The notes under the pieces are model-generated. The model saw nothing but the letters and a program-made list of their open reading frames with translations, was not told where the DNA came from and searched no databases. From Pseudo-nitzschia pungens (taxonomy: Eukaryota; Bacillariophyta; Bacillariophyceae; Bacillariales; Bacillariaceae): a stretch of DNA of 64,000 nt. Made by a program: the position numbers and the translations under genes. This document shows, one piece after another, positions 16,728 to 58,336 of this stretch. The stretch lies in the NCBI GenBank assembly GCA_037355855.1, contig CM074759.1, positions 6,510,001-6,574,000 on the forward strand, read 5' to 3'. How positions within the stretch are numbered: position 1 is the first letter of the stretch; each line of letters begins with the position of its first letter.

Positions 16728-18149
16728 ATGACGTCTAAAGGAACCAAACAGAAACCCTTTACCTTCACTCGCGAGGACTGGCCGGAAGACGCCAATGCTG
16801 TGAAGATGAGCATAGACTCCGAGAAAGGGGGAGTGGCCTTCAGTGACTATCTGAAGGTACTCACCGGCACTGAGAGACCGGAACTCTTCATCATCTGGAA
16901 GCGAGACTTTGACCAGAAGATTGTCAACAATGAGAAACTCCAAGGAGACCAGAAACTGGATGTCCTACAGAGAATCCTCTCCCTCGAGGCACTCTCTCTT
17001 GTCCAGATGGTTTTGGGCCGGACATATTATGCCGAACCAGGACATAAGGTACACAACAACCAACTGATCCAACAAAAACTCGAGAGGATTGCCATGCGGG
17101 AACCTAAGGAACCTCCTAAGGAACCCCCCACTGACAAATCCAAAGAGGCGGTGGAGGGCGCCAGCGCCCCAACCGAGAAGGACAACACGACTGCTACGGC
17201 GGCGTCCGAACAAGAACCGGAACCAACCGCACTTGACGGCCCGGTCCCAAAGAAAAGGGTCTCGAGTACCCTCATCCAGTACTACCAAACCCAGGAGTAC
17301 AGAAAGGATATCATTGAGGAGTGTATGCACGCCCTCAAGCTCAAAATCTTTGGCAATGACATGAATGGCAGACGGTCCTACATTCTGCTCCGGAGATTCA
17401 TCCGGAACACAAAAATCGATATGAAACACGGTATTCGCTCATGGGCAAACCGTATGGCCGAACTACAGAGCTATCTACCCGATTGCCTCTGGGAGAGTGG
17501 CGCTGCAAAAGGCACTGCACCATCCAGTTACTCGGAAGAGGACATGAAGGAAATCCTAGATGCCAACATGACCCACTCCCAACGCGAGAAGCTGGAGCAC
17601 ATTAGTTGGGACGTCTACAAACACCCCTTTAACACCACCATCGACAAGCTCGAAAACTTGGAAATCACCATCCGGAACGAGGATGAACTCCGCAAACGAA
17701 TCTCTGACCTCGAAAAACAAAATGGCGGAACCAAGAAGAATCCCAAGGCCGCATCTGGGGAAGGAACCCACCACGGGAAATCCCCTGGCAAAAAGAAGTG
17801 CCCTGTGGACAACAGCAACAAACAGCTATGCAAGACCTGTGGCAAGGTCCATGCCGGCAAATGCTGGAAACTAACCGGTGGTCCCTCCAAGAAGGGGAAG
17901 TTCGACCGGGAAACCATCAACCTGCTCAAGGAACACTTTGTGGCAAAAGAACAAGACTCGGACAACGAGCAACACTCCAAACCCCACTGGGGAAGGAATC
18001 TATCGAACCACGAGTACTCTTATGTACTGGCCACGGCCCAAGCTGACCATGAAGTCTCCGATGACGAGATCGACATCTCCGAACGGGAACTCAAAGAGTA
18101 CAGAAGAAAGTACCGGAAAACCTTCAAAAAGAAAGGATCCCACAACTGA
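16728..18149 (+). CDS. gag: Gag-like capsid/nucleocapsid protein of the gypsy element
   Basis: The 473-residue protein starts at an ATG in an A-rich context. The N-terminal 300 residues are helical in character and correspond in position to a capsid domain (WKRDFDQKI, RNTKIDMKHGIRSWANRM). The C-terminal part is Lys-rich and holds one zinc-knuckle-like motif CKTCGKVHAGKC, spaced C-x2-C-x3-H-x3-C rather than the classical C-x2-C-x4-H-x4-C. The protein should package element RNA. It ends in TGA at 18147-18149, directly followed in the same frame by the pol ATG, so Pol could be made by readthrough or by reinitiation. Confidence 0.9.
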   Translation: MTSKGTKQKPFTFTREDWPEDANAVKMSIDSEKGGVAFSDYLKVLTGTERPELFIIWKRDFDQKIVNNEKLQGDQKLDVLQRILSLEALSLVQMVLGRTYYAEPGHKVHNNQLIQQKLERIAMREPKEPPKEPPTDKSKEAVEGASAPTEKDNTTATAASEQEPEPTALDGPVPKKRVSSTLIQYYQTQEYRKDIIEECMHALKLKIFGNDMNGRRSYILLRRFIRNTKIDMKHGIRSWANRMAELQSYLPDCLWESGAAKGTAPSSYSEEDMKEILDANMTHSQREKLEHISWDVYKHPFNTTIDKLENLEITIRNEDELRKRISDLEKQNGGTKKNPKAASGEGTHHGKSPGKKKCPVDNSNKQLCKTCGKVHAGKCWKLTGGPSKKGKFDRETINLLKEHFVAKEQDSDNEQHSKPHWGRNLSNHEYSYVLATAQADHEVSDDEIDISERELKEYRRKYRKTFKKKGSHN

Positions 18150-21100
18150 ATGGCTTCTGATACCATCCACACCGGACCCCGCATCATCAACAGGTTTGCG
18201 GACGTCTGTGTGGAGGTATTGGACCACAAAGGAAGGGGGAGGATGCTCCGGGGCCTACTAGACTCCGGCTGCTCCAAATCCATCATACTAAGGCAATTTG
18301 TCGACCGAAGTCAACTAACGAACCGAGACCAAAGATCTGTCACCTACAACACGTACGGAGGCAAGTTCAGAACCAAGTCTGCGGCTTCAGTGGGACTAAG
18401 GCTGATAGAATTTTCAAACTCTAAGACCATCAAATGGACCTTCCAAGTGGATGAGTATCATCACCATGAGGAAGTGCCCTATGACATGATTATAGGATCC
18501 GATCTAATGGCACAACTGGGACTGGACATAAAATACAGCTCCCGAACAATAGAATGGCAGGGTGACTCTATTCCCATGAAGGGGATGGGGGAGCTCTCTG
18601 ACCCGGACAAATGTGAGGCAGTATTCTTTGCCAACACACAAAGTCCAATCCTCCAACAAGAGGAAGAAAGGCAAGCCAAAATCCTGGACGCCGACTACTC
18701 CAAAGTAGATATAGATGCTATGGTCAATGACCTGGAGATCACAGACGCGTCTAAGGAGGCCCTGAAGAAAACATTGAAGAAGTTCCCCACACTCTTTGGA
18801 GGAGGTCTGGGACTGCTCAAAAATATAGAACCGGTATCTATTGAACTCCAACCAGGGGTCAAACCGGTCCGGCAGAGGTACTATTCTGTACCCCATGCCT
18901 TTGAACAAGCACTCCGAAAGGAGATCACCAGGCTCTGTGATATTGGAGTCCTGGAAAAACTCCCCCACGATGACGACTCACCGTGGGCATCCCCTACCTT
19001 CTGTCAACCCAAAAAGACAGGGGACATTCGCGTTCTAACGGACTTCCGGAAGATGAATGCAGCCATCCAAAGGAAACCATTCCCACTACCACGAATAGGG
19101 GAAACGATCCAAAGACTACAGAAATTTAAGTCTGCTACGGCACTGGATTTATCCCAGGGATATTATACCATTCCCATCTGCAAAGAGAGTCAGAAAATCT
19201 GCTCTACCATCTTGCCGTGGGGAAAGTATGCCTACAAGAGACTAGCAATGGGGATTGCTTGTGCGCCGGATATCTTCCAATCGGTCATGATGAACCTACT
19301 AGGGGATCTGGACTACGTTCTTGTCTATATTGATGATATCCTGATCATTCAGCGGGAGGGAGAATCTGAACAGGATCACCTCAACAAAATCGATACAGTC
19401 CTACAGAGACTGGATGATGCTGGCTTCAGAGCCAACCTACGAAAATCCTTTTTCATGCAAAAAGAAGTGGAATACCTGGGATTTCTGTTAACAACAGAGG
19501 GCATTCAGCCCCAGCCAAAGAAGCTGGAGGCGATGAAGCGCCTGGAAGCCCCCAAGAACACCAAGCAACTCAAAATGTTCCTTGGAATGGTAAACTTTTA
19601 CAGGGACATGTGGAAGCGCCGCTCCCACATCCTAGCCCCTCTGAACAAACTAGCCGGGAAAAAGGGCAAAATGAATTGGTACTGGGGCCCAGCAGAGCAG
19701 AAAGCTTTCATGGAGGCGAAGAGGATGCTCGCAGATGAAGCGAAACTCGCATTCCCGGATTTTACGAAACCATTTCATCTCTACTCAGACGCCAGTGACC
19801 GGCAACTGGGAGCCACCGTGTGCCAAGATGGCAAACCACTTGGTTTCTATACGAGGAAACTGAATTCAGCACAGCTCAACTACACTGTAGGAGAGAAGGA
19901 ACTCCTCGGAATAGTGGAAGGCTTGAAAGCGTTTGAAGGAATCCTACGAGGACAAGATGTAACCATTCACACGGATCACCTGAACCTACTGTATCAGCAG
20001 ATGCCGACGCAGAGAATGGTCCGGTGGAGACTCCTCATGGAGGAGTTCCACCCGGTAGTCAAGCATGTGGCTGGCAAAGACAACGATGCAGCAGATGCAC
20101 TATCACGACTGGATATTACGGATGACCCAGCAGATACGGTGGAATGGCTACCACCAAATAAGCCCCTCACCTACGCGGATGAGGAAGAGCACCTCCGGCA
20201 ACTCCTATTCCCGCTTGGAGAAGCGCCGGAAGAATTCCAGGGCAATAGTGCATTCCCACTTGCCCCGGACATGATTCAGTTCTACCAGCAAAAGGACACA
20301 GGAATCATGAGTGCTCTGGAAAAAGACAACCGACTGACCACCAAAATGGTGGAAGGTTACAACCTAATCCATAAAGAAGGAAAGATTCTGATTCCCGATA
20401 AACTCAAGGACAGAGTCATGGAATGGTACCACAGCATGTTGGTCCATCCCGGAGAAAAGAGAATGGAACAGAGCATACGCTCAGTGTTCACCTGGAAAGG
20501 CCTACGAAAGGACGTTCAGGATCTCTGCAAACACTGCCACACGTGTCAAATGTTCAAAAAGAGTGGCCGGAAGAAGTATGGACTACTACCGGAGAAAGCA
20601 GCTGAGGTCACCAAATGGCAGAGGGTCAATGTGGACCTCTGGGGACCGGCGACTGTCCACAACAAAAATGGTAAAGACTACCACATCCATGTTCTCACCA
20701 TGGTGGACCCAGTAACCGGATGGTTTGAACTGGCTCACCTGAAGGACTCACCAAATGCAGCAGAAACTCAACGATTGTTGGACAGTACATGGCTAGCAAG
20801 GTATCCGCGCCCAAAGGAAATTGGCTTTGATGGCGGGAGCGAGTTCAAAGCAGAGTTCCAAGAGCTCTGTGATAACATGGGAATGAAAAGAAAGCCCAGT
20901 GGCGCTTGGAACCCACAATCCAACTCAGTGTTGGAAAGAATTCACCAGGTGCTGAAGGACTGTCTACTGTCCTTTAACCTGGAACAAAGGGACCTCCACG
21001 AGAAGGATCCTTTTGAGGAATTCACTACCAAGGCAGCATACGCTATTAGAAGTGCCATCCACACCACCCTGGGGTACTCCCCAGCGCAACTGGTGTTTGG

Positions 21101-21422
21101 TCGAGACATGTTCATGCCGGTGAACTTCCCAGTGGATTGGGAAGCAATCCAAGCAAGGAAGCAGAAAAGCATCCACAAGAGCAACATCAGGGAAAACCAG
21201 AAAAGGATCCCCCATGTTTATAAAGAAGGAGACTATGTCACCCTGGAAAGGAAGGGCATTATCCCAAAACTATCCTTCCCACGGCAAGGACCTTACAAGG
21301 TGCTCAAGGCCCATGATAATGGAACTGTAACTATTGAAACTGCTCCTTTTGTAACTGACCGGGTTAACATCAGGAGAGTCCATCCCTATTATTGCAGGGA
21401 TAGCCCTGAACCGGAGAAGTAA
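18150..21422 (+). CDS. pol: Pol polyprotein of the gypsy element (PR-RT-RH-IN)
   Basis: The 1090-residue polyprotein has an aspartic protease with catalytic DSG at 38-40 (in LLDSGCSKSII). Its reverse transcriptase carries VYIDDIL with Asp395 and Asp396. The RNase H has YSDAS with Asp547 and ends near AADALSRL. The integrase has an N-terminal His/Cys zinc region (LVHPGEKRM, CKHCHTC) and catalytic Asp829, Asp894 and Glu929. The last two are separated by 34 residues, one fewer than the usual 35, with NPQSNSVLE in place of the common HPQTNG.VE. The C-terminus (RVHPYYCRD) has no chromodomain. All catalytic residues are present and there is no internal stop, so the element may be active. Confidence 0.96.
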   Translation: MASDTIHTGPRIINRFADVCVEVLDHKGRGRMLRGLLDSGCSKSIILRQFVDRSQLTNRDQRSVTYNTYGGKFRTKSAASVGLRLIEFSNSKTIKWTFQVDEYHHHEEVPYDMIIGSDLMAQLGLDIKYSSRTIEWQGDSIPMKGMGELSDPDKCEAVFFANTQSPILQQEEERQAKILDADYSKVDIDAMVNDLEITDASKEALKKTLKKFPTLFGGGLGLLKNIEPVSIELQPGVKPVRQRYYSVPHAFEQALRKEITRLCDIGVLEKLPHDDDSPWASPTFCQPKKTGDIRVLTDFRKMNAAIQRKPFPLPRIGETIQRLQKFKSATALDLSQGYYTIPICKESQKICSTILPWGKYAYKRLAMGIACAPDIFQSVMMNLLGDLDYVLVYIDDILIIQREGESEQDHLNKIDTVLQRLDDAGFRANLRKSFFMQKEVEYLGFLLTTEGIQPQPKKLEAMKRLEAPKNTKQLKMFLGMVNFYRDMWKRRSHILAPLNKLAGKKGKMNWYWGPAEQKAFMEAKRMLADEAKLAFPDFTKPFHLYSDASDRQLGATVCQDGKPLGFYTRKLNSAQLNYTVGEKELLGIVEGLKAFEGILRGQDVTIHTDHLNLLYQQMPTQRMVRWRLLMEEFHPVVKHVAGKDNDAADALSRLDITDDPADTVEWLPPNKPLTYADEEEHLRQLLFPLGEAPEEFQGNSAFPLAPDMIQFYQQKDTGIMSALEKDNRLTTKMVEGYNLIHKEGKILIPDKLKDRVMEWYHSMLVHPGEKRMEQSIRSVFTWKGLRKDVQDLCKHCHTCQMFKKSGRKKYGLLPEKAAEVTKWQRVNVDLWGPATVHNKNGKDYHIHVLTMVDPVTGWFELAHLKDSPNAAETQRLLDSTWLARYPRPKEIGFDGGSEFKAEFQELCDNMGMKRKPSGAWNPQSNSVLERIHQVLKDCLLSFNLEQRDLHEKDPFEEFTTKAAYAIRSAIHTTLGYSPAQLVFGRDMFMPVNFPVDWEAIQARKQKSIHKSNIRENQKRIPHVYKEGDYVTLERKGIIPKLSFPRQGPYKVLKAHDNGTVTIETAPFVTDRVNIRRVHPYYCRDSPEPEK

Positions 21423-30687: not shown

Positions 30688-33600
30688 ATGGAATCTTCGG
30701 AAGATACAAGGAGGCGTCTCGTCGAGGACGTCGCTTCTCTGGCAAGAGTTCGGATTCGATTCTCGATTTCTTCAGATGAAAAACTTCATACCATCATACC
30801 AGCGCTAATTCCAAAGATCTTTCAACGTTTGGAGAATTACAGAACAGTAATTCTAGAACGCAACAGGATGGGAAAAAATAGCGATGGGACCTTTCTCAGC
30901 GCATCGACTCTGTCAGATCTAGAGAAAGCACAAAAGGATAGCAATGGAATAATATGCAGCGCAATGGAACGCTTGCGAGGAAACACAACGATACCCACAG
31001 AATCATTGGCGCGGTCAATGCTTCCCTTCCTTGACTCGGACAACCATGTAGTTGGCACGTGGGCATTGGCATTTCTACAAGTAAGCATTCAGAGGACTCC
31101 TACAATGAATTCCTCTTTAGTTTCTACTCTGATTCCTGCCTTGTTACAATCCGTCGGTCGGATGCACAAAAAAATTGTCCAGATGACCGAGAATTCGATA
31201 AACAAGAGTCCACTTGAAGCTCGATGGATTCGCATGAGTTGGCTTTTGCTTGACAGCATCGTTCTCCATTCTGGTCAAAAACCAATGGCTGATTGGGGTA
31301 TCGACACGTTTGATTACACGCTTACCAGAAGGGCAGAAACAGCTCATAGCGATTCTACACACAACAATGATCGACATCACTCTTTATTGTCACAACAACT
31401 AAGAGTGATGAATTCCAACAACCAAAGTACATTCGACGGATTCCTTTCCCTGATGCTAGATCTAATGTTGTTTTGGCCGGTGAAACGGCCAGCTACTAGC
31501 GATAATTCGATGCTATCTCGACTAGGTTTGCGTCGAATGGAACACAGAAACGATGTCATCCCGCCTCCCATTGACGAAATGGAAGAAGACGATATGTTCG
31601 CACCCTTAGCTGTAGAACGTGGATTGCCATTCCGATTGCAACGTCTCCGACCGAGTAGACGAAAGGCAGAATGGTCCGAATCCAGCAAAGCATATCTTCG
31701 ATACATGAAACTAGTTTGTTTAGAGCTGGTCATTGGGCCTCGGTTAAAGGGTTTGTTTCAGGGGAGAGATAATGACTGTGCCTTGCTATTGAGTATTTTG
31801 GTCGCGAATTACGAATCTATGCACGGAAGAATGGCCTTTTCATATCTTCGGGAATGGAAGGTGAAAAGCAACTTGGTGCCATTGCCCGTTGTATCTTGTA
31901 TTCTTATCTTGTTTGTAGGGGAAGCGGAGGCAAAAGAAGTACTTGACACTCTCGAGAGGAAGTACAGAATCAGGTTTTCGGAACTTTTGTTGCACATGGG
32001 TTCAAGAAGCAAAGACGAAAACACCGATCGACCGTCAATTTCATGGGAAATTACTTCGAGGGCAGCAGATTTTCTCATGGAACAACCATTTCAATGGAGA
32101 TGCACCAGGGCCACGCCAGTAACNNNNNNNNNNNNNNNNNNNNNNNNNNNNNNNNNNNNNNNNNNNNNNNNNNNNNNNNNNNNNNNNNNNNNNNNNNNNN
32201 NNNNNNNNNNNNNNNNNNNNNNNNNNNNNNNNNNNNNNNNNNNNNNNNNNNNNNNNNNNNNNNNNNNNNNNNNNNNNNNNNNNNNNNNNNNNNNNNNNNN
32301 NNNNNNNNNNNNNNNNNNNNNNNNNNNNNNNNNNNNNNNNNNNNNNNNNNNNNNNNNNNNNNNNNNNNNNNNNNNNNNNNNNNNNNNNNNNNNNNNNNNN
32401 NNNNNNNNNNNNNNNNNNNNNNNNNNNNNNNNNNNNNNNNNNNNNNNNNNNNNNNNNNNNNNNNNNNNNNNNNNNNNNNNNNNNNNNNNNNNNNNNNNNN
32501 NNNNNNNNNNNNNNNNNNNNNNNNNNNNNNNNNNNNNNNNNNNNNNNNNNNNNNNNNNNNNNNNNNNNNNNNNNNNNNNNNNNNNNNNNNNNNNNNNNNN
32601 NNNNNNNNNNNNNNNNNNNNNNNAGGAGATTGCATCGACGATGAGATGTATGCGATATTGTTCATCGAATTGTCACTCAGATTGGCAGAAGCAGAGGAAG
32701 ATAGATACGTTTTTTTAGCAATGCGCCTCGTTTCATTCTTTTACAGTCATCTTCAACTGATTGGACCAGTTCTGGCTGCGAAGGTGTATGGTGCAGTCAC
32801 CAAAGTGCTCAAAACCTTGGTGGATTTTGGGGTGGAAGATGAATTGAGAACAATACCTAACCATACCGAACAAAATCCGTTGGGAGTTCCTACTCCGTTC
32901 CATAATCGCAATGATCTAAACCAATTACTCCTGAACCATCGACAAACACTCAAGCGAAACCAAATGAAACGGAATGACCCCCTTAAAGCTCGACATGAAG
33001 CGTACAAGTTGATTCCTTCGATATTATCTCACATCTTTGAACGTAAAGACACTTCGCCCTTTCACCTCCCCAATCTTTTGATTCAATGCGCTGTCTATGA
33101 AGACCGCTTTCTCGAGCATCATGTGGTAAAAGCCTTGGATTCTACACTTGAAGAATACAAGAGAAAACTTGTCGAAGACCAATCACTTTACCACAAAGAT
33201 AACAAAAACTACAGAATGCCTTTGCAACAGCAGGCAACATCTATCTTGCCAGCACTTCTTGAGGCAGTATGTTCCGGAGCTGAATATGTGAGAACCAGCG
33301 CAATTCAGTGGATACGGAATTTGCTGATAGACATGGATGCCGAGGCTGCATCTTATCTCGCTAGTCACCTTGTTCATGATGAAAACCATATAATTGCTCG
33401 GTTAGCACATGAAGTACTTGAAATCACTGCGAGCAAAATGTTACCCACCGCTTTCAACGAAAAAATAAATGTGTCGTTTTTTGATTTGACTGAAAGTGAG
33501 GGATTCATGAACGTGCAGAAGGACCTCGAGATGAGAAGCAGAGAATTAGCTCAGCGGCTACAAATGTTCTCACGTGAACACTGCTTAGTGCTTCTCCTCC

Positions 33601-37521: not shown

Positions 37522-38787
37522 ATGGCACCAGCATTTCTTTTCAGTTCTTGGTTGGTTTTGATCCTCGTTGCTGCAGGAGTGTCATTCCAATGTGTTGTTT
37601 CATTTCCGCTCGCGCGTCAAAGCTTTGTGAAAAAGTCGACAACAGCTAGAAATGGTTGGGTTCAGCTTCCCGACGGAGAATGGGAATGGGAGGAAGACGA
37701 TCCAGATTTTGTCCCTCCGCCGGCCGTCGAGATTCCGGCAGCAGCAGCATCCGTAGAAGCCACTGCCACTCCGCAACTTCCGTCGGGAAAACTCAGACCG
37801 AAACAGTCACTGGGGCAAAATTTTCTCAGAGATGGAAACACGGTCGCTAAAATGATAAAAGCATTCCACGAGGATGCGACAAAACGTGGAGATCGACCCG
37901 GTAGACCATTGACATCAATTGTTGAGTTGGGCCCGGGTGCAGGTGCCCTGACAGACCGCTTGGTTGAGAAATACGGGACGGACGTCCTACAATGCATCGA
38001 GGTTGATCCTCGTGCGATTGAGATTCTGGCAGAGAGATATCCGTCGCTACTCGTTCACCACCAGGATGTTCTGCAAGTAAGTTACCCAGATATGGCTGAC
38101 GAGCAAGGGGAACCACTCGTCATCATCGGCAATCTGCCCTATTACATCACGAGTCAAATTCTATTTGCCTTGGCCGATGCAAGCCATTACGGTGCCGTGG
38201 ATTGCGCCACCGTCACCATGCAATGGGAAGTTGGTCAGCGAATGGTTGCTCCCACCTCGTGCAAAGATTACGGAATCCTGTCGGTTGTCTTTCAAACATA
38301 CGCGGACGTTCGGTGCCATTTCAAGATTCCACCAACTGTATTCTATCCCCAACCCAAGGTCGACAGTGCCTTGCTAGGATTACACTTTTTGGGACCAGCG
38401 AAATTGCGCCAGCGATTGGCAGGAGTACGCCCCAGAGATTTTAGAACCGTCGTTACAACCGCATTTCGACAGCGGCGGAAGACAATTCGCAATTCTCTGA
38501 AAAAATTGCCGGGTATCGACAAGGAAATCTTGTTGGAAAAGATCGATGCCGCACCCCTTCCACTTCCGGACTCCGTGATTTCTGCGCGTGAGCGAGGAGA
38601 TGCCTTTGCTTTGTCACAAGAATTACCTGCGGATTGGATGCGAAAACGTCCGGAACAATTGACACCGGGACAATTTGTGGAAGTGACACGGCTTATGTTT
38701 GGCGACACAAACGCCGAAGGTGGCGACGATCCATCCGAAGTTGAATTGGGAAGAAAAGTGTGGCGAAAGCTGAAGCATGGAGTGTAA
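37522..38787 (+). CDS. ksgA: KsgA/Dim1-type rRNA adenine dimethyltransferase, probably plastid
   Basis: The 421-residue protein starts at an ATG in an AAAATGG context. Residues 1-30 are a signal peptide ending FQCVVSFPL, an ASAF-like site, so plastid import is likely. The enzyme core starts near residue 90: LGQNFL, the SAM-binding motif VELGPGAGALT, EVDPRAIEIL and the catalytic motif GNLPYYITS. It uses S-adenosylmethionine to dimethylate two adjacent adenines in the 3' hairpin of small-subunit rRNA during ribosome assembly. Plant plastids use the KsgA homologue PFC1 for this. An acidic stretch (EWEWEEDDPDF) between leader and core is unusual. The core has the length of the bacterial enzyme. 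Confidence 0.93.
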   Translation: MAPAFLFSSWLVLILVAAGVSFQCVVSFPLARQSFVKKSTTARNGWVQLPDGEWEWEEDDPDFVPPPAVEIPAAAASVEATATPQLPSGKLRPKQSLGQNFLRDGNTVAKMIKAFHEDATKRGDRPGRPLTSIVELGPGAGALTDRLVEKYGTDVLQCIEVDPRAIEILAERYPSLLVHHQDVLQVSYPDMADEQGEPLVIIGNLPYYITSQILFALADASHYGAVDCATVTMQWEVGQRMVAPTSCKDYGILSVVFQTYADVRCHFKIPPTVFYPQPKVDSALLGLHFLGPAKLRQRLAGVRPRDFRTVVTTAFRQRRKTIRNSLKKLPGIDKEILLEKIDAAPLPLPDSVISARERGDAFALSQELPADWMRKRPEQLTPGQFVEVTRLMFGDTNAEGGDDPSEVELGRKVWRKLKHGV

Positions 38788-42528: not shown

Positions 42529-43761
42529 CTACGCATCTTCTGGTGTCTTGACATATCGCACAGTTCTCCCCTGCAGACCGTTGAGGAAAGAAAGAGCGTC
42601 AATAGGTTTCTTTGTTGCAGGTTGTAGTCTATTGATTTCCAAGATTGACCCATCGAAACAAATGAGTCGCAGACCATCCTTCTTTGTAGGGCCACGTTCT
42701 ATGAGGTCTGTTGGGCCACCTTCGGCGGTCCCATCTATTAACCGGGTGTCGAGGATCTTGTATTTGACCGGAGCACTTCCTTCCCCTACCTCGAGATACA
42801 TGAAGGCTCCTGGCCACATCGAAAACCCCCTGAGACGATTGTGCAAAGTTGCAGCGGTTTCTTCCCATGGCTTCATTTCGGCTTCGGAAGAATCAATCAT
42901 TGCTGCTTGCGTCACTTGCTCTTCGTCCTGTGGTTGCGCTGTATCAAAAGTGATTTCACCGGACAAGATATCTGGCATTTTTTCTATGAGAAGATCTGTT
43001 CCTTTCTCAAAAAGCCACGGGAGAACTTTTGTGGCTGTGGCGTCCTCGCTGTTTTCGTCCTCGATCGTTTCCTCTTTTTGGGCAATGATTGGTCCGGCAT
43101 CCATTTTCGAAACGGTGTACAAAACGGTAACACCGATGGGATTGTCACCAGCCTCGAGGGATCGTTGGACAGGGCTGGCACCCCTCCACTTTGGAAGCAG
43201 ACTAGGATGGATGTTAACGGTCCCAAGAGAAGGAGTCGCCAAGAATCGTTTGGGAAGGTATTGTCCGTACGCTGCAGTGATGAACAGGTCGGGTTTGATT
43301 TCGTGTTCGAGGCTGTCCAAGAATTCTTTGTTGTTGGCCTTTTCGGGACAGAGTACGGGCAGACCGAGCTCTTCCGCTACTGCTCCGACCGGACTGGGTT
43401 CGGCTTTGCCCTTTCGTTTTCTGCGCCTGGGGGGTTGGGTAATAACGCAAACAATATCGTATTTCCCAGCACTATCGTCGTGCAGTTTTCGCAACGTTGT
43501 GGCGGCCACTTCGGGCGTTCCTAGAAACACGACGCGCTTCTTTTCTTGATTTTCATCGTCGTCAATCGTTGAAAATAACCTGGAAGAAAACGAAGGCACC
43601 AAACGAAACTCTCGACGGTTTTCGTCTTGGAATCGGATCAACGAAGGCGGACCTCTAATTCCGGTGAAAGCACGAGAGCTGGCGGTTCGTACTTGGAAGG
43701 AGCGCACATAGCGAGCAGCCATGATGATTGGAAGAATACGTTCCACTGAGAGGATCTTCAT
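42529..43761 (-). CDS. fmt: Methionyl-tRNA formyltransferase, mitochondrial
   Basis: The protein has 410 residues from the ATG at 43761; the ATG at 43722 (MAARYVRSFQVRTASSRAF) also gives a typical Arg-rich mitochondrial presequence and may be the true start. The formyltransferase core begins VVFLGTPEVAATTL. The folate-binding and catalytic signature is intact: NIHPSLLPKWRGASPVQ with Asn and His, then the Asp in KMDAGPI. The C-terminal tRNA-contacting domain follows (RGFSMWPGAF). The enzyme transfers a formyl group from 10-formyl-tetrahydrofolate to Met-tRNA to start organelle translation. It would draw on the folate pool that FolD enzymes feed, such as the FolD-like fusion further along, though that link is inference. 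Confidence 0.95.
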   Translation of the reverse strand: MKILSVERILPIIMAARYVRSFQVRTASSRAFTGIRGPPSLIRFQDENRREFRLVPSFSSRLFSTIDDDENQEKKRVVFLGTPEVAATTLRKLHDDSAGKYDIVCVITQPPRRRKRKGKAEPSPVGAVAEELGLPVLCPEKANNKEFLDSLEHEIKPDLFITAAYGQYLPKRFLATPSLGTVNIHPSLLPKWRGASPVQRSLEAGDNPIGVTVLYTVSKMDAGPIIAQKEETIEDENSEDATATKVLPWLFEKGTDLLIEKMPDILSGEITFDTAQPQDEEQVTQAAMIDSSEAEMKPWEETAATLHNRLRGFSMWPGAFMYLEVGEGSAPVKYKILDTRLIDGTAEGGPTDLIERGPTKKDGLRLICFDGSILEINRLQPATKKPIDALSFLNGLQGRTVRYVKTPEDA

Positions 43762-44772
43762 CTGTGTTTCGTTCTTAAATTCTGGCTGCCTCCTCGATGC
43801 CCTCAACAAGTCAAGTACTTTCAACAAGTAGTTTCGTTGTAGTTTGCGTAGATGAGAAGGCACACATTGGCCATCGGCTTTCTAACATCACAGAAATTGG
43901 GAATCCAAACGAGTGATGCTCCTCCGCACAAAGAAGGATCCCATGACGTTTTCCTTACGCGGTCAGATACGTACATACGTCAGGTTCGTACCGATCGTAC
44001 ATACGACGATTCAAGTTTTCCATTTCCATCAATACAGTACGGTAATTTACAGGAGGACACATAGAGTACGAACCCGTGCCGGTACGTACCGGTACCTGGT
44101 ACCGGAATCCCAAGTTTTTAATTTTTAAAAAAAGATACTGTATTTCATTTGTTGTAAGTAGTACTACTAACCTAAATATAATATAACTGCTTCTGGACCC
44201 CGTGGTGAGGATGGAAGTATTGACAGGAGGGTTGAATTGGCACGTGCGAATACGAATTCAGCTTTATAGGTCCAGGGTTACGATTGCTGTAATCAGCAGC
44301 AACCCGCAAGCTTAGCATGGTAGCTAGTAGTAGTAGTAGTACTAGTCCGCCTTTTCGTCCCTTATGTTCTTGCACCTTCGAAGAATTGTGAAACAGTCTG
44401 AACTAAAATTCATACGGATAGGATAATAAGTACGCATCTGCTTGCTTTCCCTTCAATACCATTGTGGTTCATAGTCAGAGACACAATCTACTTTCCAAAA
44501 ATAATTATTGGCAGTATTTACTGTGATAACAGAGTACGAAGCAAAAAAGTTCTAATTCGATCAATGGCCTCAAAATTTGAAATACTTCAACCGTTCCCAA
44601 CGGGCATTTATCAGTTTACTCGGTCGAAGACATATATCCGACTTCAACAACACGAAATTGTTGACATTTCCATTCGGCATCCCATGTTTCAGAGCGCCAG
44701 CCCATCAAGAGCAGTGCTGCTGTTGGAGAAACACGCATTCCTTCGCCCGAGACAGCACGTTCGAGCTCTCGT
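43762..44772. other. Intergenic region rich in GGTACC palindromes
   Basis: This contains the nested palindromic run GGTACGTACCGGTACC near 44080-44103 and a TAGTAGTAGTAGTACTAGT tract at 44321-44346. No gene was seen. Confidence 0.55.
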
Positions 44773-50563: not shown

Positions 50564-51697
50564 CTAATGCTGTCCTTCCCCATGTAATGCCGTGAAGCCC
50601 GATGCTTTAGGCTTTCTCCCAGACCAAGAGAAATTGATTTCGGTCAGTTTTTTCATTCGCTGTGGTGTCATCGTGCTCTGTTTACCTTCGGTTAGAAATT
50701 TGTACTGGCGTCTCTGTCGTTTGACCCAAATCGCAAGTTGTGGGTTGTCTTCGTACTTGCTAGGGACGTTGGTGTTGCCATACACGTTTTTGTACTGTTT
50801 CAGCTCCTTGAGGCGCTCTTCCCAAACGGCATCGTGGGAGTTCCACACGAAGCCGAGTTTCGCTAGGGCGAGCACGCGGTCTTCTGTCATGCTGGAATGC
50901 TTTCCCAATCCCTTGAGCTTGTATTGATATCTCTGGCGTTTGACCCACTCTGCCAAGGAAGGATTCTGTGGAAATTGGTTCGGGACCAAGCAATGGCCAT
51001 TGGAGAGTCGAAAGTCCAATAACTCTTCGTATTTTTCCATCCAACTTTCTGCTTGATGAGATCGGAAGCGCACCTTCGAGGGCGGGTTGGGGACTGGGCT
51101 ATCTTTCCTTTTTCTGTTCTCATTTTCCATTGGTACTGACTGCGTTGAATATTGGTTGTATGACTGCCGCTGTTGCTGTTGTGGTTGCTGTTGCTGCTGT
51201 TGTCCGATGGACGATGATGCTGTGAGGGGAGGAGCAAAGTTGTTGAAAAAAGTTTGTGATGACATCGCCATTCCCGCGGGCTTTGATTCGTCCACGCATT
51301 CATTCATTGCCACTCTGATTCGGTTGGATTTCTTTTTTTCATTGGGATATTCAACAGTGATTGGAGATAGGTCTGCTGTGGCTGAGTTCGATGTTTCCTG
51401 GTTGAGAAAACTTCGAAAGTTTTGACTATTGTTCAAACCCACAACGTTCTCCGGTCGGAATATTTCGTTGGTATCGAAGCACAAATCAGCCTTTAGTTGC
51501 GTTTCATCTGCGAAAAAAGCGATCGATGACCTGCGAAATTGCTCTGCGTTGACATTGTCTGGATTTTGGGTTTGGCATGCTCTGATGTCATTGTTTTGAT
51601 TTACAACGCTAGCGTCCAAGAAAGTCCGATTCAACATATTTGGATCATGCTGACGATCGCTATCGAACGAGAAGCCATTCATGGGGTGTGTATACAT
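50564..51697 (-). CDS. Helicase-associated (HA) domain protein, two repeats
   Basis: The 377-residue protein starts at an ATG. The N-terminal 215 residues are low-complexity with a Gln run (GQQQQQQPQQQQRQ) and a basic patch NRKRKDSP that could be a nuclear signal. Two helicase-associated repeats follow, near residues 217-290 (WMEKYEELLDF, NGHCLVPNQF, LAEWVKRQRYQY, KLGFVW) and 291-365 (WEERLKELKQY, GNTNVPSKY, LAIWVKRQRRQY, INFSW). HA repeats are very abundant in diatoms, often without a helicase, as here, and are thought to bind nucleic acid. A regulatory DNA-binding role is inference. Confidence 0.85.
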   Translation of the reverse strand: MYTHPMNGFSFDSDRQHDPNMLNRTFLDASVVNQNNDIRACQTQNPDNVNAEQFRRSSIAFFADETQLKADLCFDTNEIFRPENVVGLNNSQNFRSFLNQETSNSATADLSPITVEYPNEKKKSNRIRVAMNECVDESKPAGMAMSSQTFFNNFAPPLTASSSIGQQQQQQPQQQQRQSYNQYSTQSVPMENENRKRKDSPVPNPPSKVRFRSHQAESWMEKYEELLDFRLSNGHCLVPNQFPQNPSLAEWVKRQRYQYKLKGLGKHSSMTEDRVLALAKLGFVWNSHDAVWEERLKELKQYKNVYGNTNVPSKYEDNPQLAIWVKRQRRQYKFLTEGKQSTMTPQRMKKLTEINFSWSGRKPKASGFTALHGEGQH

Positions 51698-53028: not shown

Positions 53029-53985
53029 TTACCAGTTGTTCAAACCAAAGTCAACGCCTGCTTCCTTTTCGTTTTTCCTCCTATCTTTGTATACCTCCAA
53101 AGCTTTCTTGCGTTCTGTTCTATCCGATCCAGCTGCTGCAATGTCTTGGGCCTGAGCAAAGAATTCATCTACAACATCCTGGGATTCTTCTTGGGCGTCC
53201 TCAATTGGGTCCGAAAAGTATCGATTACCCAATCCGGCACGGTCTCCCCCGATTTCAATCTTGGGAATTCCATTTGCTCTGCGCCAATCGTTTGAGTCTC
53301 GTAGGGAATAAGAACAACCACAGTATTCTTGCTTGTAAAATTTATTTTCTGCTGAAATCTGGTATTTTCGTAAAGTCATAACGTCCGTTTGCCAATCACG
53401 GTACCAATACTTGAGACCATCGTACCGGGCTGCTGCGCGTATTCCCGATCCATCCACTTGCTTTGCGTCTTTCCATCGAGAGGTAGCGTTCGTCGTGGCA
53501 ATCGCATCAAATCCATTTTCGTGCGCGTAAAGGGCGGTCCGTTCCATTCGCATATCAAAACATTCCGTGCAGCGTTTCCCCCGTTCTGGATCAAATTCCA
53601 TTCCCTTCATACGTTTGTACCACTTGTCCGAATCGTAGTCGCAATCGATAAATTCAATGCCGAGACTTTTCGCAAACCGTTTATTTTCTTCCTTCCGGAT
53701 CATGTACTCTCGCTTTGGGTGAATATTTGGGTTGTAAAAAAAGATCACGACCTCCAATCCGTAGTGCTCTGTATAACTAAGCATCTCCTCTACCATTGCA
53801 CCACTACAGGGTGCACAACAACTGTGCAGTAGGATTCTGGAAATGCCTTCTGGAGGTGGATTGTCGTATAGACCGGCCTTTCCTTTTTCCGCCATCCGCT
53901 CCTTGATGCGTTGGCTGGCAGCTACTGCCCACTCGGGTGCGTTGGAGGGAAGAGCTGCGCCCTCGCTGTACTTCAATTCTGGCAT
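53029..53985 (-). CDS. queH: Epoxyqueuosine reductase QueH
   Basis: The 318-residue protein has all the QueH (formerly DUF208) marks: HSCCAPC with Cys56, Cys57 and Cys60; FFYNPNIHPKREY; CTECF with Cys139 and Cys142; a YWYRDWQT segment; and KFYKQEYCGCSYSLRD with Cys222 and Cys224. QueH reduces epoxyqueuosine in tRNA to queuosine, the last step of de novo synthesis, and is an iron-sulphur enzyme in bacteria. It is unrelated to the cobalamin-dependent QueG. The N-terminal 48 residues extend beyond the conserved core but do not look like a strong organelle leader. QueA, the preceding enzyme of the pathway, is encoded 665 bp upstream on the same strand. A C-terminal tail of about 60 charged residues is extra. 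Transfer from a bacterium is likely. Confidence 0.93.
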   Translation of the reverse strand: MPELKYSEGAALPSNAPEWAVAASQRIKERMAEKGKAGLYDNPPPEGISRILLHSCCAPCSGAMVEEMLSYTEHYGLEVVIFFYNPNIHPKREYMIRKEENKRFAKSLGIEFIDCDYDSDKWYKRMKGMEFDPERGKRCTECFDMRMERTALYAHENGFDAIATTNATSRWKDAKQVDGSGIRAAARYDGLKYWYRDWQTDVMTLRKYQISAENKFYKQEYCGCSYSLRDSNDWRRANGIPKIEIGGDRAGLGNRYFSDPIEDAQEESQDVVDEFFAQAQDIAAAGSDRTERKKALEVYKDRRKNEKEAGVDFGLNNW

Positions 53986-54650
53986 AGTGAATACTTATTT
54001 TTCTGGTGAACACAGCGATCGAATAGATGCGGCAGATCAAACGACGTCGGAGGGCACTACATAATCGGTGCTCAGAAACCCTCTCGTGTCGGTAGTCGGT
54101 AGCCGGGAGTCGGTAGTCGGTAGCTTGATTGGATGACGATGCGTGATTGATTTTACTTTGAGGAATGGAGATAACTTTTTTATGATTGATGGAGTGTGTG
54201 AGTTTTGGTGATGAATGAATCATGAGTAATGATTCAGTCATGAGTTCAAATGGCTTTGCAATAGGACCTAAGGTTACGGTAGTAACCTTAATGAATATCA
54301 TGCTCCTTGTTGATATTGCCCTTCCCCTTTGGACAGCCCATACCGGTACTGGAATACGAAGTAAAGAATACAAAGGGTAATACGATTAGATTGATTAACC
54401 GTCCCAGACCTGCCAATCTAAACACACGTACAAGAAAAAATACGATTAACCTTTCCAGACCTGCCAATCTGAACACGCGTACAAGAAATACGATTACATT
54501 CCGACTAGAACGATGATCAACGAACTTCTCAAACTCCCACATTCGATACACAGTGAAACAATGAAACCACTAACGCTCCATGTTAACAAATCTATTGTCA
54601 CAAACAAAGTGATTTAGTAATTTTGGATTGGGGTAAACAGTATGGGATTC
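53986..54650. other. Spacer between queA and queH
   Basis: This contains GTCGGTAG-type short repeats (54088-54125), the inverted repeat TAAGGTTAC/GTAACCTTA at 54269-54290, and a tandem pair of about 51-bp units (54394-54444 and 54445-54493) with the shared core CCAGACCTGCCAATCT. The TAACCTTA word is the same one scattered over all gene deserts in this window. Confidence 0.7.
54394..54493. repeat. Two-copy 51-bp direct repeat
   Basis: Both units contain CCAGACCTGCCAATCT, then AACACRCGTACAAGAAA and ATACGATTA, with a few mismatches and a 3-base difference in the A run. Confidence 0.85.
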
Positions 54651-56027
54651 TCATCTTCTAGGACGGCAGAAAAAGCATGAGTCGCCGTAACTGAGAAATT
54701 TGTATCCACGGTCTTGGGCGGCTTCGTATACCTTACGTACTTTCTTGCCGTCGCCAAGGAAAGCTGATACCAAAAGCATCAGAGTGGAATCCGGAGCGTG
54801 GAAGTTTGTAATCAAATTTTCAACAACCTTGAAGTCGTATCCGGGAGCAATCATGAGACTGGTTCTCCCCGTAACTGTTTGTTCCGCAGATTTATTCTCG
54901 ATCATAGCACTCAAGGCATTGACAGTTGAAATGTCGAGTCCCTTTCTTTTCGCAATTGACTCCAACTGACTCCATTCGTATTGGCCAAGAACCCTCGCCT
55001 CGTCATCATCCAGCTTCTTTTCTTTCATTTTTCTTAGGACCTCGACTTCAGTGTCGGTCACGTTATTTAGACTCAACACTTTCAACTCCTCCTCAATATT
55101 TTTTTTCATCAATATTCTCTTTACACCGCACCAGTAAAGGCTTTCCAAAGTTCGGGAGCTCGTCGTTCCAACGACAACGAGGCGTCGTTTGGATTCCAGT
55201 GACTCTATTATTCGTTGAAGTTCGCCAACTGATACTACAAAGCTTTCACCATGCATCTCGTGATCACGGGCGTCTTCAGTGGAGACAGGCTTGAAAGTTC
55301 CCGCTCCAACGTGTAAAGAAAGATAGCTTATGTTATGTAGACCGATCTTTGCAAGTATGGGGTCGGTGAAGTGTAGCCCTGCTGTAGGAGCAGCTACAGA
55401 ACCTTCACCCGCTGCGTACACAGTATTATACCCGCTTTCGTCCGACAAGTCTGCTTCTCGGTCAAAATATGGAGGAATTGGAACAGATCCCAGTGATCGA
55501 AAGAGGTCCGACATATTTGCAATACTCATATCCTCAACGGCGCACTTAACGATACACTCGGTACCATTTCCTTGACTCTTTTCGTCTTCGATCCATGGTC
55601 CAATCACCTTCGCGACACGGAACGAAACGGAGCCTTTTCCATGAACCTGAAACGAGTCTCCGACTCGAACAGCCTCCGTGCGAAGCATGACGTTTAATTC
55701 TGCACCTTGGCATGATTGTTGAAGGACGCCATCCAGATCCAGAACCATCATCTCCAGCGGCGTGCCATCGGGTTCATTTATGGCATTAACACTTAACCGA
55801 GCGTTTACAACTTTACTTTCGTTCAGTACCAGATGTGAGTCTCCCAGCAGGGGCAAAATGGAATCAGAAAAATTATTAAAGTAGTGCACATCACCATTCG
55901 CATCCACATTCAGAAGACGTGAGCTCCCCCTGGGATCAGCAGGGTACTTGGCGATAGTGTCGTCTCGTAAGTCATATGTGAAATCACTCATGCTGATCTT
56001 ATTGTAGGTGGAATGCTCGTAAGCCAT
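54651..56027 (-). CDS. queA: QueA, tRNA S-adenosylmethionine ribosyltransferase-isomerase
   Basis: The 458-residue protein matches QueA along its length: YDLRDDTIAKYPADPRGSSRLL, LVLNESKVVNARL, YNTVYA...GSVAAPTAGLHFT (about residues 200-221), LSLHVGAGTFKPV, HEMHGESF, VVGTTSSRTLES, then MIAPGYDFKVVENLITNFHAP and FLSYGDSCFF. QueA uses the ribosyl group of S-adenosylmethionine to convert preQ1 at tRNA position 34 to epoxyqueuosine. About 80 extra residues lie between LESLYW and APGYDF, as I recall for QueA of the Bacteroidota. Met13 is an alternative start, and no organelle leader is evident. Its start codon lies only 86 bp after the stop of the fusion gene upstream, very tight for a eukaryote, and QueH follows on the same strand. 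Confidence 0.95.
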   Translation of the reverse strand: MAYEHSTYNKISMSDFTYDLRDDTIAKYPADPRGSSRLLNVDANGDVHYFNNFSDSILPLLGDSHLVLNESKVVNARLSVNAINEPDGTPLEMMVLDLDGVLQQSCQGAELNVMLRTEAVRVGDSFQVHGKGSVSFRVAKVIGPWIEDEKSQGNGTECIVKCAVEDMSIANMSDLFRSLGSVPIPPYFDREADLSDESGYNTVYAAGEGSVAAPTAGLHFTDPILAKIGLHNISYLSLHVGAGTFKPVSTEDARDHEMHGESFVVSVGELQRIIESLESKRRLVVVGTTSSRTLESLYWCGVKRILMKKNIEEELKVLSLNNVTDTEVEVLRKMKEKKLDDDEARVLGQYEWSQLESIAKRKGLDISTVNALSAMIENKSAEQTVTGRTSLMIAPGYDFKVVENLITNFHAPDSTLMLLVSAFLGDGKKVRKVYEAAQDRGYKFLSYGDSCFFCRPRR

Positions 56028-56113
56028 CTATAGAGTATTGAATTTTGGTTGAAATGATGTTTTTGAATACATATTGAGGTTATTCAAAGTTAACAATAAA
56101 TTTATCCCACATT

Positions 56114-58336
56114 CTAATTTTCTCCAACGCTTACCTGTCCCGACAAGATACCATTCACTCTACGGGCAGCCTCGTAATCTTTCTCGGTCAGATCATTTGC
56201 TTCGAAAGAAAAATATTCCATGCTGACGTCAACTCCATCAACGCATTTATGGGTGAACGAAATATTAGCGTGATGATCTATTTCGGAACTCATGACATTG
56301 ACCTTATTGACAAACTTCAGAGCCGAATCATAATCCTTGAAATGAATCGACCTGTGAAGAGATCCACTTTTCTTCTGCCAATCCGCATCCACGTCTCCCG
56401 TCTTTGCCGCTCGGTCCCATGCAGCACGGGCAACATTCTTGTATAGCTCAGAGACTGGGATCGGGCCGATTCCTCCCGGAACGGGACTGAAGCGGTTTGC
56501 ACGGAGGAACAGATCTCCGGAGAAATCAGAAAGGAGACGATCCTGTTCCTCGCTGAAAGTGGTGCCTACGTTAATTACATCCACTCCCTCTTTCAGCCAA
56601 CTAGCTTCAAAGATGCCTGGATCGCCGACGCAAGATATGACAATGTCCGCTTTTCCTACCAAGGGCTTGAGATCTTCTCGTGAGACGCCAGAGTGGGCCA
56701 CCGTGACAATGGCATCTCGAGCTCGAAGCATGTGTGCAATAGGAGATCCAACAATGCGACTTCGGCCTATTACGAGAACGTTTTTCCCCTTTGGATCGAT
56801 TTCGTATCTATCCATCAAATCCAAAGTCGCGGCGGGTGTGACCGGGGGTAGAGGAGAGGAAGTGGGGTCCATTTCAAGCTGGCCGATGTAGTGCGCTCCA
56901 TCGACATCTTGGTCGAGCCTTATGGCACTGTACGCTTTACCCGAATCGATGTGATCAGGGAGGGGCCACATCAATTGAATTCCATCGAAATCCTGGCTGT
57001 TGTAGATTTGGCTCAATAATTCGTCGGTTGTGGTGTTCTCTGGAAGGTTCACTTCTTTCACATCGAAACCATGATTTTCTCCTGTCGAAGTCTTGCTGAA
57101 CCAACTGTTCCTGTTGTTGCTATAGATCTTGATGCGTCGGTCGCCGTGGGCATATCTGGGAAGTTCGCCCACCGTAATGACAGCCAATGATGGTTTGCGA
57201 CCATGTTCTTTGTGAAAGGCAATCGCGGATTCTTTTGCTTCCTCGAGATTGGTCCTTGCCAACTCATTACCTGCCAGAAGCTTGGGTGATGGTTGCCAGA
57301 TGGTAGGATCCAAACCGAAATTCGGCTCAACATCTCTTTCAAGGAGCCATTTGGTGGCTTCGTTCCATCTCTTGGGACTGATAACACCATATCGATCTCC
57401 TTGGAAGGTCTCCTTTGCATAATCACCGCACAATCCGACGTTTTGAACGGTGTATTCGAAAGAGGAATCCCAGTGGTCATTGTTCTCGTCATCCAAACCT
57501 AGCATAGCCCTGGCTTCATCTACGCTTCTCGCTGCCTGTTCAATGTCTCGGACAGCCGATCCCCATCCCGAAAATGTGGCATCGAGGAAGGCTTGTAAAA
57601 TCTCCCGTTTGTCGTTGTTTTTTTCGGACGTGAGATCCTCGTTTGGTGTAAACAATACCTGCGAGTATCCCAATCTTGTGCCATTCCATCCTTCGAGTGA
57701 TGTACAGCTAACGGTACCGGCACCACCCAGATGACGTTCCAGAGTAGGTACCTCGGTCGTAGCGTAGGCCTGAATCGAATCCAAACGACCCTCCAAAAGG
57801 TCCGTGATTTTGCTCGCACGGGGGCTTGCAATAACGGATGATTGCATCCCATCGTTTTTCAAAATTCGCTCCAGCAAAGCGACTGTGTCTTCATGTGCCC
57901 CGACTACCAGCGGATTTTCGTTCTTGCTTTCACGATTGATTGAAGCCAAGCATAAGGGTGAAGTCCGAAACATGGCAGCGATGGCTTTAACGTCAAGCTC
58001 AGGGTTTTGGTGAAGAAGAGGAACGAAAATGTTCTGCTCCACGCTGCCCACTACGACATGATCACCTGCGTTGCCATTTCGATGCTCTCGGACTCGTTCC
58101 ATTTCCAACCCGACCGGACAAATGGGTAGAAATCGGAGATCGATCCCAGCCTTGTCGTACAAACCGTCGACCATTGCGCAGGCAATGCCTGCAAACTGCG
58201 GCGACATGTAGTAATCCAATTGGAGAGAAACGGTCGATTTCAAACGACGAGCGCCCCCAAGACCACGACCGAGAGCGGTATGGCGTCCGGCGTTTCGAGC
58301 ATGGCAAGCATGCTTTGCGAGGATTTTGGAAATCAT
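56114..58336 (-). CDS. Triple fusion: THI5/NMT1-like, FolD-like, pterin-4a-carbinolamine dehydratase-like
   Basis: The 740-residue protein has an Arg-rich mitochondrial-type presequence (residues 1-36). Residues about 38-300 form an NMT1/THI5-like domain (YYMSPQFAGIACAMVDGLY) without the Cys-rich motif of the fungal HMP-phosphate synthase. Residues about 345-645 are FolD-like, normally 5,10-methylene-tetrahydrofolate dehydrogenase/cyclohydrolase (QLMWPLP, DQDVDGAH, VIGRSRIVGSP 522-532, PVPGGIGP 618-625). By my alignment the catalytic YxxxK reads Tyr405...Arg409. Residues about 660-735 are a pterin-4a-carbinolamine dehydratase-like domain (EIDHHANI with His688-689), but the later catalytic His (usually in a TH pair) is Phe. 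The domains link pyrimidine, folate and pterin chemistry, yet each lacks a signature residue, so a sensor or altered enzyme is possible. Confidence 0.88.
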   Translation of the reverse strand: MISKILAKHACHARNAGRHTALGRGLGGARRLKSTVSLQLDYYMSPQFAGIACAMVDGLYDKAGIDLRFLPICPVGLEMERVREHRNGNAGDHVVVGSVEQNIFVPLLHQNPELDVKAIAAMFRTSPLCLASINRESKNENPLVVGAHEDTVALLERILKNDGMQSSVIASPRASKITDLLEGRLDSIQAYATTEVPTLERHLGGAGTVSCTSLEGWNGTRLGYSQVLFTPNEDLTSEKNNDKREILQAFLDATFSGWGSAVRDIEQAARSVDEARAMLGLDDENNDHWDSSFEYTVQNVGLCGDYAKETFQGDRYGVISPKRWNEATKWLLERDVEPNFGLDPTIWQPSPKLLAGNELARTNLEEAKESAIAFHKEHGRKPSLAVITVGELPRYAHGDRRIKIYSNNRNSWFSKTSTGENHGFDVKEVNLPENTTTDELLSQIYNSQDFDGIQLMWPLPDHIDSGKAYSAIRLDQDVDGAHYIGQLEMDPTSSPLPPVTPAATLDLMDRYEIDPKGKNVLVIGRSRIVGSPIAHMLRARDAIVTVAHSGVSREDLKPLVGKADIVISCVGDPGIFEASWLKEGVDVINVGTTFSEEQDRLLSDFSGDLFLRANRFSPVPGGIGPIPVSELYKNVARAAWDRAAKTGDVDADWQKKSGSLHRSIHFKDYDSALKFVNKVNVMSSEIDHHANISFTHKCVDGVDVSMEYFSFEANDLTEKDYEAARRVNGILSGQVSVGEN

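Follow-up and report, generated by a model that had tools for sequence, protein, structure and literature searches.

Eukaryotes are generally regarded as dependent on queuine from bacteria, and the finishing of queuosine is mostly thought to be absent from them. Could a diatom finish queuosine itself? The question is raised by a locus of Pseudo-nitzschia pungens at which a first-pass annotation had noticed bacterial-type queA and queH genes side by side. The locus lies in a 64,000-nucleotide stretch of contig CM074759.1 (positions 6,510,001 to 6,574,000 of the forward strand), hereafter the window. Two minus-strand open frames, at 53029-53985 (318 amino acids) and 54651-56027 (458 amino acids), were confirmed there, with a gap of 665 bp between them. 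The first matches the Pfam QueH family (PF02677) with 197.5 bits (E 2.5e-58, gathering score 23.5) and the second the QueA family (PF02547, Queuosine_synth) with 273.5 bits (E 3e-81, cut-off 25); the genome, of 66.9 Mb, has a single site for each family. The comparisons described below indicate that the second frame is the end of a larger gene, which may act together with queH in the finishing of queuosine.

The QueA frame and the frame upstream

Upstream of the QueA frame, on the same strand, lies a frame of 740 codons (56114-58336). The last 21 bases of this frame, its stop included, and the 86 bp that lead to the QueA ATG make up a predicted intron with GT-AG borders (GGACAG/GTAAGC and CTATAG/ATG) in phase 0; its GC content is 27%, against 46-50% in the flanking exons. 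Excision of these 107 nt is predicted to remove the apparent stop and start between the frames, and the spliced product (58336-54651, minus strand) is one protein of 1192 amino acids. A 96% identical homologue (P0241) is uninterrupted across the junction (..GILSGQ/TAYEHSTYKKISM..) and has a Thr at the position of the QueA-frame ATG, so that this ATG is very probably not a start codon but the first codon of exon 2. QueA had been annotated as an intact, separate gene, a view that the intron and the continuous homologues overturn: the frame is almost certainly the last exon of a four-domain fusion gene, its splicing being predicted from genomic DNA. The locus is laid out as follows.

56135-58336, minus strand: exon 1, 734 codons, with the leader and the ThiY/THI5-like, FolD-like and pterin-4a-carbinolamine-dehydratase (PCD)-like domains (open frame 56114-58336; Pfam NMT1, THF_DHG_CYH, THF_DHG_CYH_C and Pterin_4a; continuous with QueA in homologues)
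58244-58336, minus strand: N-terminal leader, residues 1-31, rich in Arg and Lys without Asp or Glu, mitochondrial-presequence-like (by eye, homologue leaders included)
57290-58243, minus strand: NMT1 (ThiY/THI5-like) domain, residues 32-349
56402-57289, minus strand: FolD-like domain, residues 350-645; in the catalytic-site columns Ser stands for Tyr and Met for Gln, and Lys and Asp are retained
56135-56401, minus strand: PCD-like domain, residues 646-734, His-His kept and third His replaced (PF01329, PDB alignment, column counts)
56028-56134, minus strand: predicted phase-0 spliceosomal intron, 107 nt, GTAAGC...CTATAG, 27% GC (junction matches continuous homologue P0241)
54651-56027, minus strand: exon 2, long-type QueA-family domain, 458 codons and stop (PF02547, 273.5 bits; trees)
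53986-54650, minus strand: spacer of 665 bp that separates queH from the fusion gene
53029-53985, minus strand: queH, single exon, 318 amino acids, epoxyqueuosine reductase family (PF02677, 197.5 bits; PDB 7lc5, E 1.8e-21)

A protein with helicase-associated (HA, PF03457) domains is encoded at 50564-51697, on the strand of queH and downstream of it.

With the 1192-amino-acid protein as a query, 93 matches at E <= 0.001 were obtained among 7993 scored candidates, a lower bound. NMT1, FolD, PCD and QueA motifs occur together in 40 of the 93, and FolD, PCD and QueA in 7 more; P0327 (1811 amino acids) carries all four and QueH as a fifth domain, so that FolD, PCD and QueA share one chain in 48 matches, P0327 counted in. 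QueA is fused to QueH alone in P0331 (738 amino acids). P0327 and P0331 thus tie the fusion domains directly to QueH. The fusion is present in Pseudo-nitzschia multistriata (P0243), P. heimii (P0252, taxid 476441) and Amphora coffeaeformis (P0266), with a partial member in Seminavis robusta (P0284), and some entries are transcript-derived (MMETSP/EukProt: P0016, P0252, P0257, P0268 and P0274). Other diatoms have unfused NMT1-FolD-PCD proteins of about 750 amino acids that lack QueA (e.g. P0304, Odontella) and separate QueA proteins with leaders of their own (e.g. P0009, Thalassionema nitzschioides). Some of these seemingly unfused proteins may be gene models split at introns, since P0273 and P0003 share a source-sequence length of 4841, and P0322 and P0047 one of 12777. 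All together, these homologues leave us with hardly any doubt that the fusion is real and widespread in diatoms.

The stop between the frames in the raw DNA might also be taken to mean that two independent genes are simply neighbours without fusion, or that a bacterial insert was misassembled. We give this virtually no credence in view of the canonical GT-AG phase-0 intron and of the 48 homologues, transcript-derived ones included, that run continuously through FolD, PCD and QueA. The window sits on a contig of 8.79 Mb in a genome of 28 contigs; together with the predicted intron and the close homologues in named diatoms, this rules out bacterial contamination or misassembly and agrees with the first-pass view that both genes are nuclear.

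Relatives of the QueA domain and of QueH

The QueA domain belongs to the PF02547 superfamily by a profile above the gathering score and by fold. However, it scores below all three matched curated equivalog cut-offs (NF001140, 283.2 vs 324; TIGR00113, 251.4 vs 267.45; NF002398, 173.8 vs 588) and has insertions relative to the canonical bacterial QueA that TIGR00113 and NF001140 describe. Its closest non-eukaryotic relatives among the matches listed are Bacteroidota proteins of roughly 400-450 amino acids named 'S-adenosylmethionine:tRNA ribosyltransferase-isomerase' (the long type), 32-42% identical and with motifs in common. A scan by two peptide patterns that characterise long-type proteins, which did not sample canonical QueA, confirmed at least 590 loci in Bacteroidota, of which 80 were kept; the commonest cluster of neighbouring genes, in 18 of the 80, gave no functional clue. 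Unlike the diatom domain, the long protein is a separate gene at the loci examined, in genomes that have another QueA-family gene as well. All 32 genomes searched (32 of the 80 loci) hold at least two PF02547 genes, the higher-scoring copy reaching 349-471 bits, and those copies that entered the trees (12 in a tree of 55 rows, 6 in one of 42) group with canonical QueA.

The rows of these trees were drawn at random or chosen by hand; the first tree uses 55 rows from a trimmed set of 142. Left out beforehand were P0295 and P0309, which had no span that could be used, and 9 of the 30 canonical loci, in which the motif was not found. In both trees the eukaryotic rows form one group (support 100/98), and a 100/100 branch parts canonical QueA from the long-type and eukaryotic rows; the same split was obtained when the QueA of E. 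coli, Acetoanaerobium, Magnetococcus, Collinsella and Sinorhizobium were added. We chose to place the root at the canonical rows; without a root, the trees show three separate groups. Beyond the rooted trees, the eukaryotic group is tied to the long type by similarity and shared motifs. As judged from these comparisons of sequence, the QueA domain is not canonical QueA and sides with the Bacteroidota long paralogue. The first-pass description of two intact frames with full signatures therefore stands for QueH but not for QueA, whose frame is an exon of a divergent family member.

Is the chemistry the same? Forty-five columns are at least 90% identical within each of three groups of QueA-family rows (27 canonical, 92 long and 28 eukaryotic), so that the core chemistry looks preserved, although the substrate may not be. 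The QueA structures 1vky, 1wdi and 1yy3 match the domain in sequence, and superpose on the predicted model with a root-mean-square deviation of 8.4-9.5. The domain could move the ribosyl group of S-adenosylmethionine (SAM) to a substrate other than preQ1-tRNA, as part of an uncharacterised pathway in which a reductase of the QueH family also acts. Such a change would fit the branch apart from canonical QueA, the other PF02547 gene of the 32 bacterial genomes, the scores under the equivalog cut-offs, and a Tyr-Trp pair that is invariant in ten rows compared and absent from four canonical rows compared. Yet QueH, whose substrate is epoxyqueuosine-tRNA, adjoins the fusion here and is fused to QueA in P0327 and P0331, the core columns are common to canonical QueA, and no second PF02547 gene was matched in this genome. 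We regard another substrate as rather unlikely, though it deserves to be kept in mind.

QueH is ordinary by its domain and its cysteines, and reductase activity is predicted. The motifs CCxP(C), CxxC and CxC are present (HSCCAPC, RCTECF and EYCGC) and align to those of PDB 7lc5, which we take to be a Thermotoga-type QueH. Homologue searches with each of the two frames scored about 8000 candidates, of which the best 120 were noted; all three exact cysteine patterns occur in 93 of the 120 QueH homologues, some of the others being short pieces. Although alike in domain and cysteine motifs, diatom QueH differs from 7lc5 by an extra N-terminal segment (YxEG in 15 of 18 rows) and a C-terminal tail. 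It is tempting to speculate that the N-terminal segment docks QueH onto the fusion.

Both genes had been proposed to come together from one bacterium. This joint transfer is unsupported, because the nearest bacterial relatives differ among the records compared: the Bacteroidota long paralogue for QueA, and for QueH Klebsiella (55%) and Acinetobacter (53%), ahead of two Bacteroidota QueH (42-44%). The QueH sample is small (20 of 188 matching plasmid records and the two Bacteroidota genes), and closer bacterial QueH may exist; within the plasmid records, Klebsiella, Escherichia, Acinetobacter and Neisseria reach 51-55% and Gram-positive bacteria about 30-34%. In Collinsella, adjacent queH and queA genes are annotated, with a QueA that is canonical in the tree, so that bacteria are known to have the two side by side. 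A plasmid of Acinetobacter lwoffii (L131:1586-8021) carries queH near genes annotated as methionine synthase, MesX oxygenase and methylenetetrahydrofolate reductase C-terminal domain.

Active sites of the N-terminal domains

What could the three domains ahead of QueA contribute? Active-site columns were counted over 96 aligned rows. In the FolD-like domain, the column of the substrate Tyr holds Ser in 90 rows and Cys in 1 (5 gaps), and that of the Gln holds Met in all 92 ungapped rows (4 gaps), whereas the catalytic Lys is present in 91/91 ungapped rows (5 gaps) and the Asp in 91, with Gly in 1 (4 gaps). The Tyr/Lys/Gln/Asp set of bifunctional FolD is thus incomplete, with Lys and Asp retained and Tyr and Gln replaced; an initial idea that the Lys was lost had to be rejected on this alignment. 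In the human enzyme, according to the accessible parts of PMC3368264 and PMC6443876, the Asp binds the pterin head group, p-aminobenzoate stacking falls to the Tyr, and Lys and Gln are catalytic. Loss of the Tyr with a kept Asp is a pattern that a smaller pterin-like ligand might favour, although a Trp/Phe beside the Ser could substitute for the Tyr. In the PCD-like domain, His-His is found in 84/84 ungapped rows and the third His in none of the 84 (12 gaps). These three residues presumably fill the active-site roles of pterin-4a-carbinolamine dehydratase, and the set is incomplete in the fusion, where the third His is replaced. The NMT1 domain has a ThiY/THI5-type fold; the ligand named in the ThiY structure record is an aminomethyl-pyrimidine. 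When the predicted model was compared by Foldseek, the 50 matches listed were FolD chains only; a second model comparison picked up other domains, with no PCD chain among the 50 matches listed and with the model barely tested outside residues 319-614.

All three N-terminal domains appear to derive from aminopyrimidine- or pterin-binding folds, and the consistent changes at the active sites of the FolD- and dehydratase-like domains suggest that these two have been put to a new use on a small heterocycle. A different explanation is that NMT1-FolD-PCD is a mitochondrial one-carbon or pterin-recycling enzyme outside queuosine, joined to QueA by chance or for methionine/SAM supply. FolD and PCD are folate and pterin families, the catalytic Lys is kept throughout, some of the proteins of about 750 amino acids lack QueA, and QueA consumes SAM. 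Against this, the Gln is replaced in 92/92 and the Tyr by Ser in 90/91 ungapped rows, the third dehydratase His is missing throughout, the five-part fusion P0327 includes QueH, and elsewhere the genome encodes a canonical FolD (L008) that has the whole Tyr/Lys/Gln/Asp set. A one-carbon enzyme is on balance unlikely. Two more FolD-family genes in the genome (L010, L011) resemble by eye the yeast-type monofunctional MTD1.

A ThiY/THI5-like domain also occurs in the NMT1-domain proteins that Llavero-Pasquina et al. 2022 (PMC9544697) described from diatoms, whose genes were reported in 9 of 19 diatom genomes and proved dispensable for thiamine synthesis in P. tricornutum, where a knock-out had no thiamine phenotype. 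These proteins, likened here by description only, differ in that signal peptides are reported and that FolD, PCD and QueA go unmentioned in the accessible part of that paper.

Pathway context and a possible role

We next consider where preQ1 would come from. No match to QueC, YhhQ, QueF or QueG was found in the genome by an exon-by-exon search, which a much-split gene could escape and which did not include QueE; the same searches matched 7 to 12 of 14 control genomes in each case. QueC and QueF, which mark the de novo preQ1 pathway, are thus without a match, and preQ1 would need to be salvaged. This check, proposed with the first-pass annotation, also turned up 3 TGT genes, 1 Qng1 and 2 PTPS. 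One full-length TGT (L002) is QTRT1-like by eye. A second (L003) is bacterial-like, spans two exons and has its best PDB match in Zymomonas Tgt variants (202.7 bits, vs 168.5 for QTRT1); a TGA within its match is its own terminator. The third (L004), matched over one short stretch, is probably QTRT2.

With confidence a little above an even balance, we favour the view that the locus encodes a two-protein module, the spliced fusion and QueH, that salvages preQ1 and finishes queuosine. The alga would take up preQ1 made by bacteria, and a TGT (the bacterial-like one, or QTRT1/2) would insert it into tRNA with GUN anticodons. The QueA domain would then transfer the ribosyl group of SAM to preQ1-tRNA, yielding epoxyqueuosine, which QueH would reduce to queuosine. 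The NMT1, FolD and PCD domains together would probably bind a related small heterocycle, such as preQ1 or a pterin, or prepare it for the reaction of QueA, as their folds bind aminopyrimidine or pterin and two have changed active sites. Finishing from imported preQ1, as first suggested, gains from the lack of QueC, QueF and YhhQ matches and from the presence of QueH where QueG has no match; function is inferred from sequence, and the compartments do not agree. Consistent with such a route, human QTRT takes preQ1 in vitro (PMC8136771, accessible part).

Several observations weigh against this module. By eye, the fusion has a mitochondrial-type leader and QueH no organelle leader, while that of the bacterial-like TGT (L003:300-2350) is plastid-type and bipartite, with a hydrophobic stretch and then AAVAA/FSS. 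In the alignment, the pocket of L003 carries Gly in the place of V233 and Leu in that of C158, which the accessible part of PMC12301720 argues to permit queuine, and QueA and QueH would therefore be dispensable there; in Zymomonas TGT, V233G keeps preQ1 affinity with turnover reduced about tenfold, and C158V reduces affinity (PMC3660597, accessible part). The QueA domain is nearest to a Bacteroidota paralogue that has another PF02547 gene in the same genome in all 32 genomes searched, so that its substrate may differ, and QueH was found in only 2 of these 32. Last, no report of a queuosine measurement in diatoms was found in the open-access literature searched.

Some of these discrepancies would be accounted for if free queuine base were produced: preQ1 would be held by the N-terminal module while QueA and QueH act without tRNA, and QTRT1/2 would then insert the queuine. 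This would explain the Gly at the queuine-pocket position of both full-length TGTs (L003; L002 by eye) and the lack of a TGT visibly in the compartment of the fusion, and ThiY does bind an aminomethyl-pyrimidine. However, known QueA and QueH act on tRNA, and we find the free-base route very improbable. A bolder proposal is that NMT1-FolD-PCD is a new 7-deazaguanine/pterin enzyme that supplies its own QueA-QueH with the base, by synthesis or by conversion, as a self-contained mitochondrial queuine/queuosine factory, possibly de novo and replacing QueC/QueF, the first in eukaryotes; we consider it a long shot.

Other features of the window and significance of the locus

Elsewhere in the window, two adjacent plus-strand frames at 16728-21422 (473 and 1090 amino acids) resemble by eye gag and pol of a Ty3/gypsy-type retrotransposon. 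Exactly 500 N (32124-32623), which cause the window's 22% GC dip, lie inside a frame resembling by eye a RING/RBR-type ubiquitin ligase. A 584-amino-acid frame (3246-5000) has, by eye, two tandem AlgH/UPF0301-like domains, and 37522-38787 and 42529-43863 look by eye like KsgA/Dim1 rRNA dimethylase and methionyl-tRNA formyltransferase, each extended at the N terminus.

Eukaryotic QueA together with QueG has been reported before. According to the accessible part of Turmel et al. 2025 (PMC12301720), BL-TGT, QueA and QueG, predicted to be mitochondrial, are found in Chloropicon, with YhhQ in some strains, and in Galdieria. These algae and the diatom locus are alike in nuclear bacterial-type finishing enzymes that are predicted mitochondrial, in preQ1 salvage and in QTRT1/2 and QNG1. 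The two differ in that QueG takes the place of QueH, YhhQ occurs in some strains, no fusion is described there, and the Chloropicon BL-TGT is predicted mitochondrial whereas the leader of L003 is plastid-type by eye. The word queH does not occur in the main text of PMC12301720, and 'queh' in a diatom paper (PMC7096440) is the author name Quehenberger. Within the open-access literature searched, no report of a eukaryotic QueA-QueH pair, of which the first-pass annotation knew no described case, or of an NMT1-FolD-PCD-QueA fusion was found; the diatom fusion is, as far as this literature goes, undescribed.

If the module works as proposed, diatoms, major primary producers of the ocean, could use the earlier precursor preQ1, and the view of queuosine exchange between algae and bacteria would change. 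The three extra domains offer a concrete link of queuosine finishing to pterin- and pyrimidine-binding folds, and thanks to the fusion their function can be tested directly. The long QueA paralogue of the Bacteroidota gains a functional clue from QueH, the partner of its eukaryotic relative.

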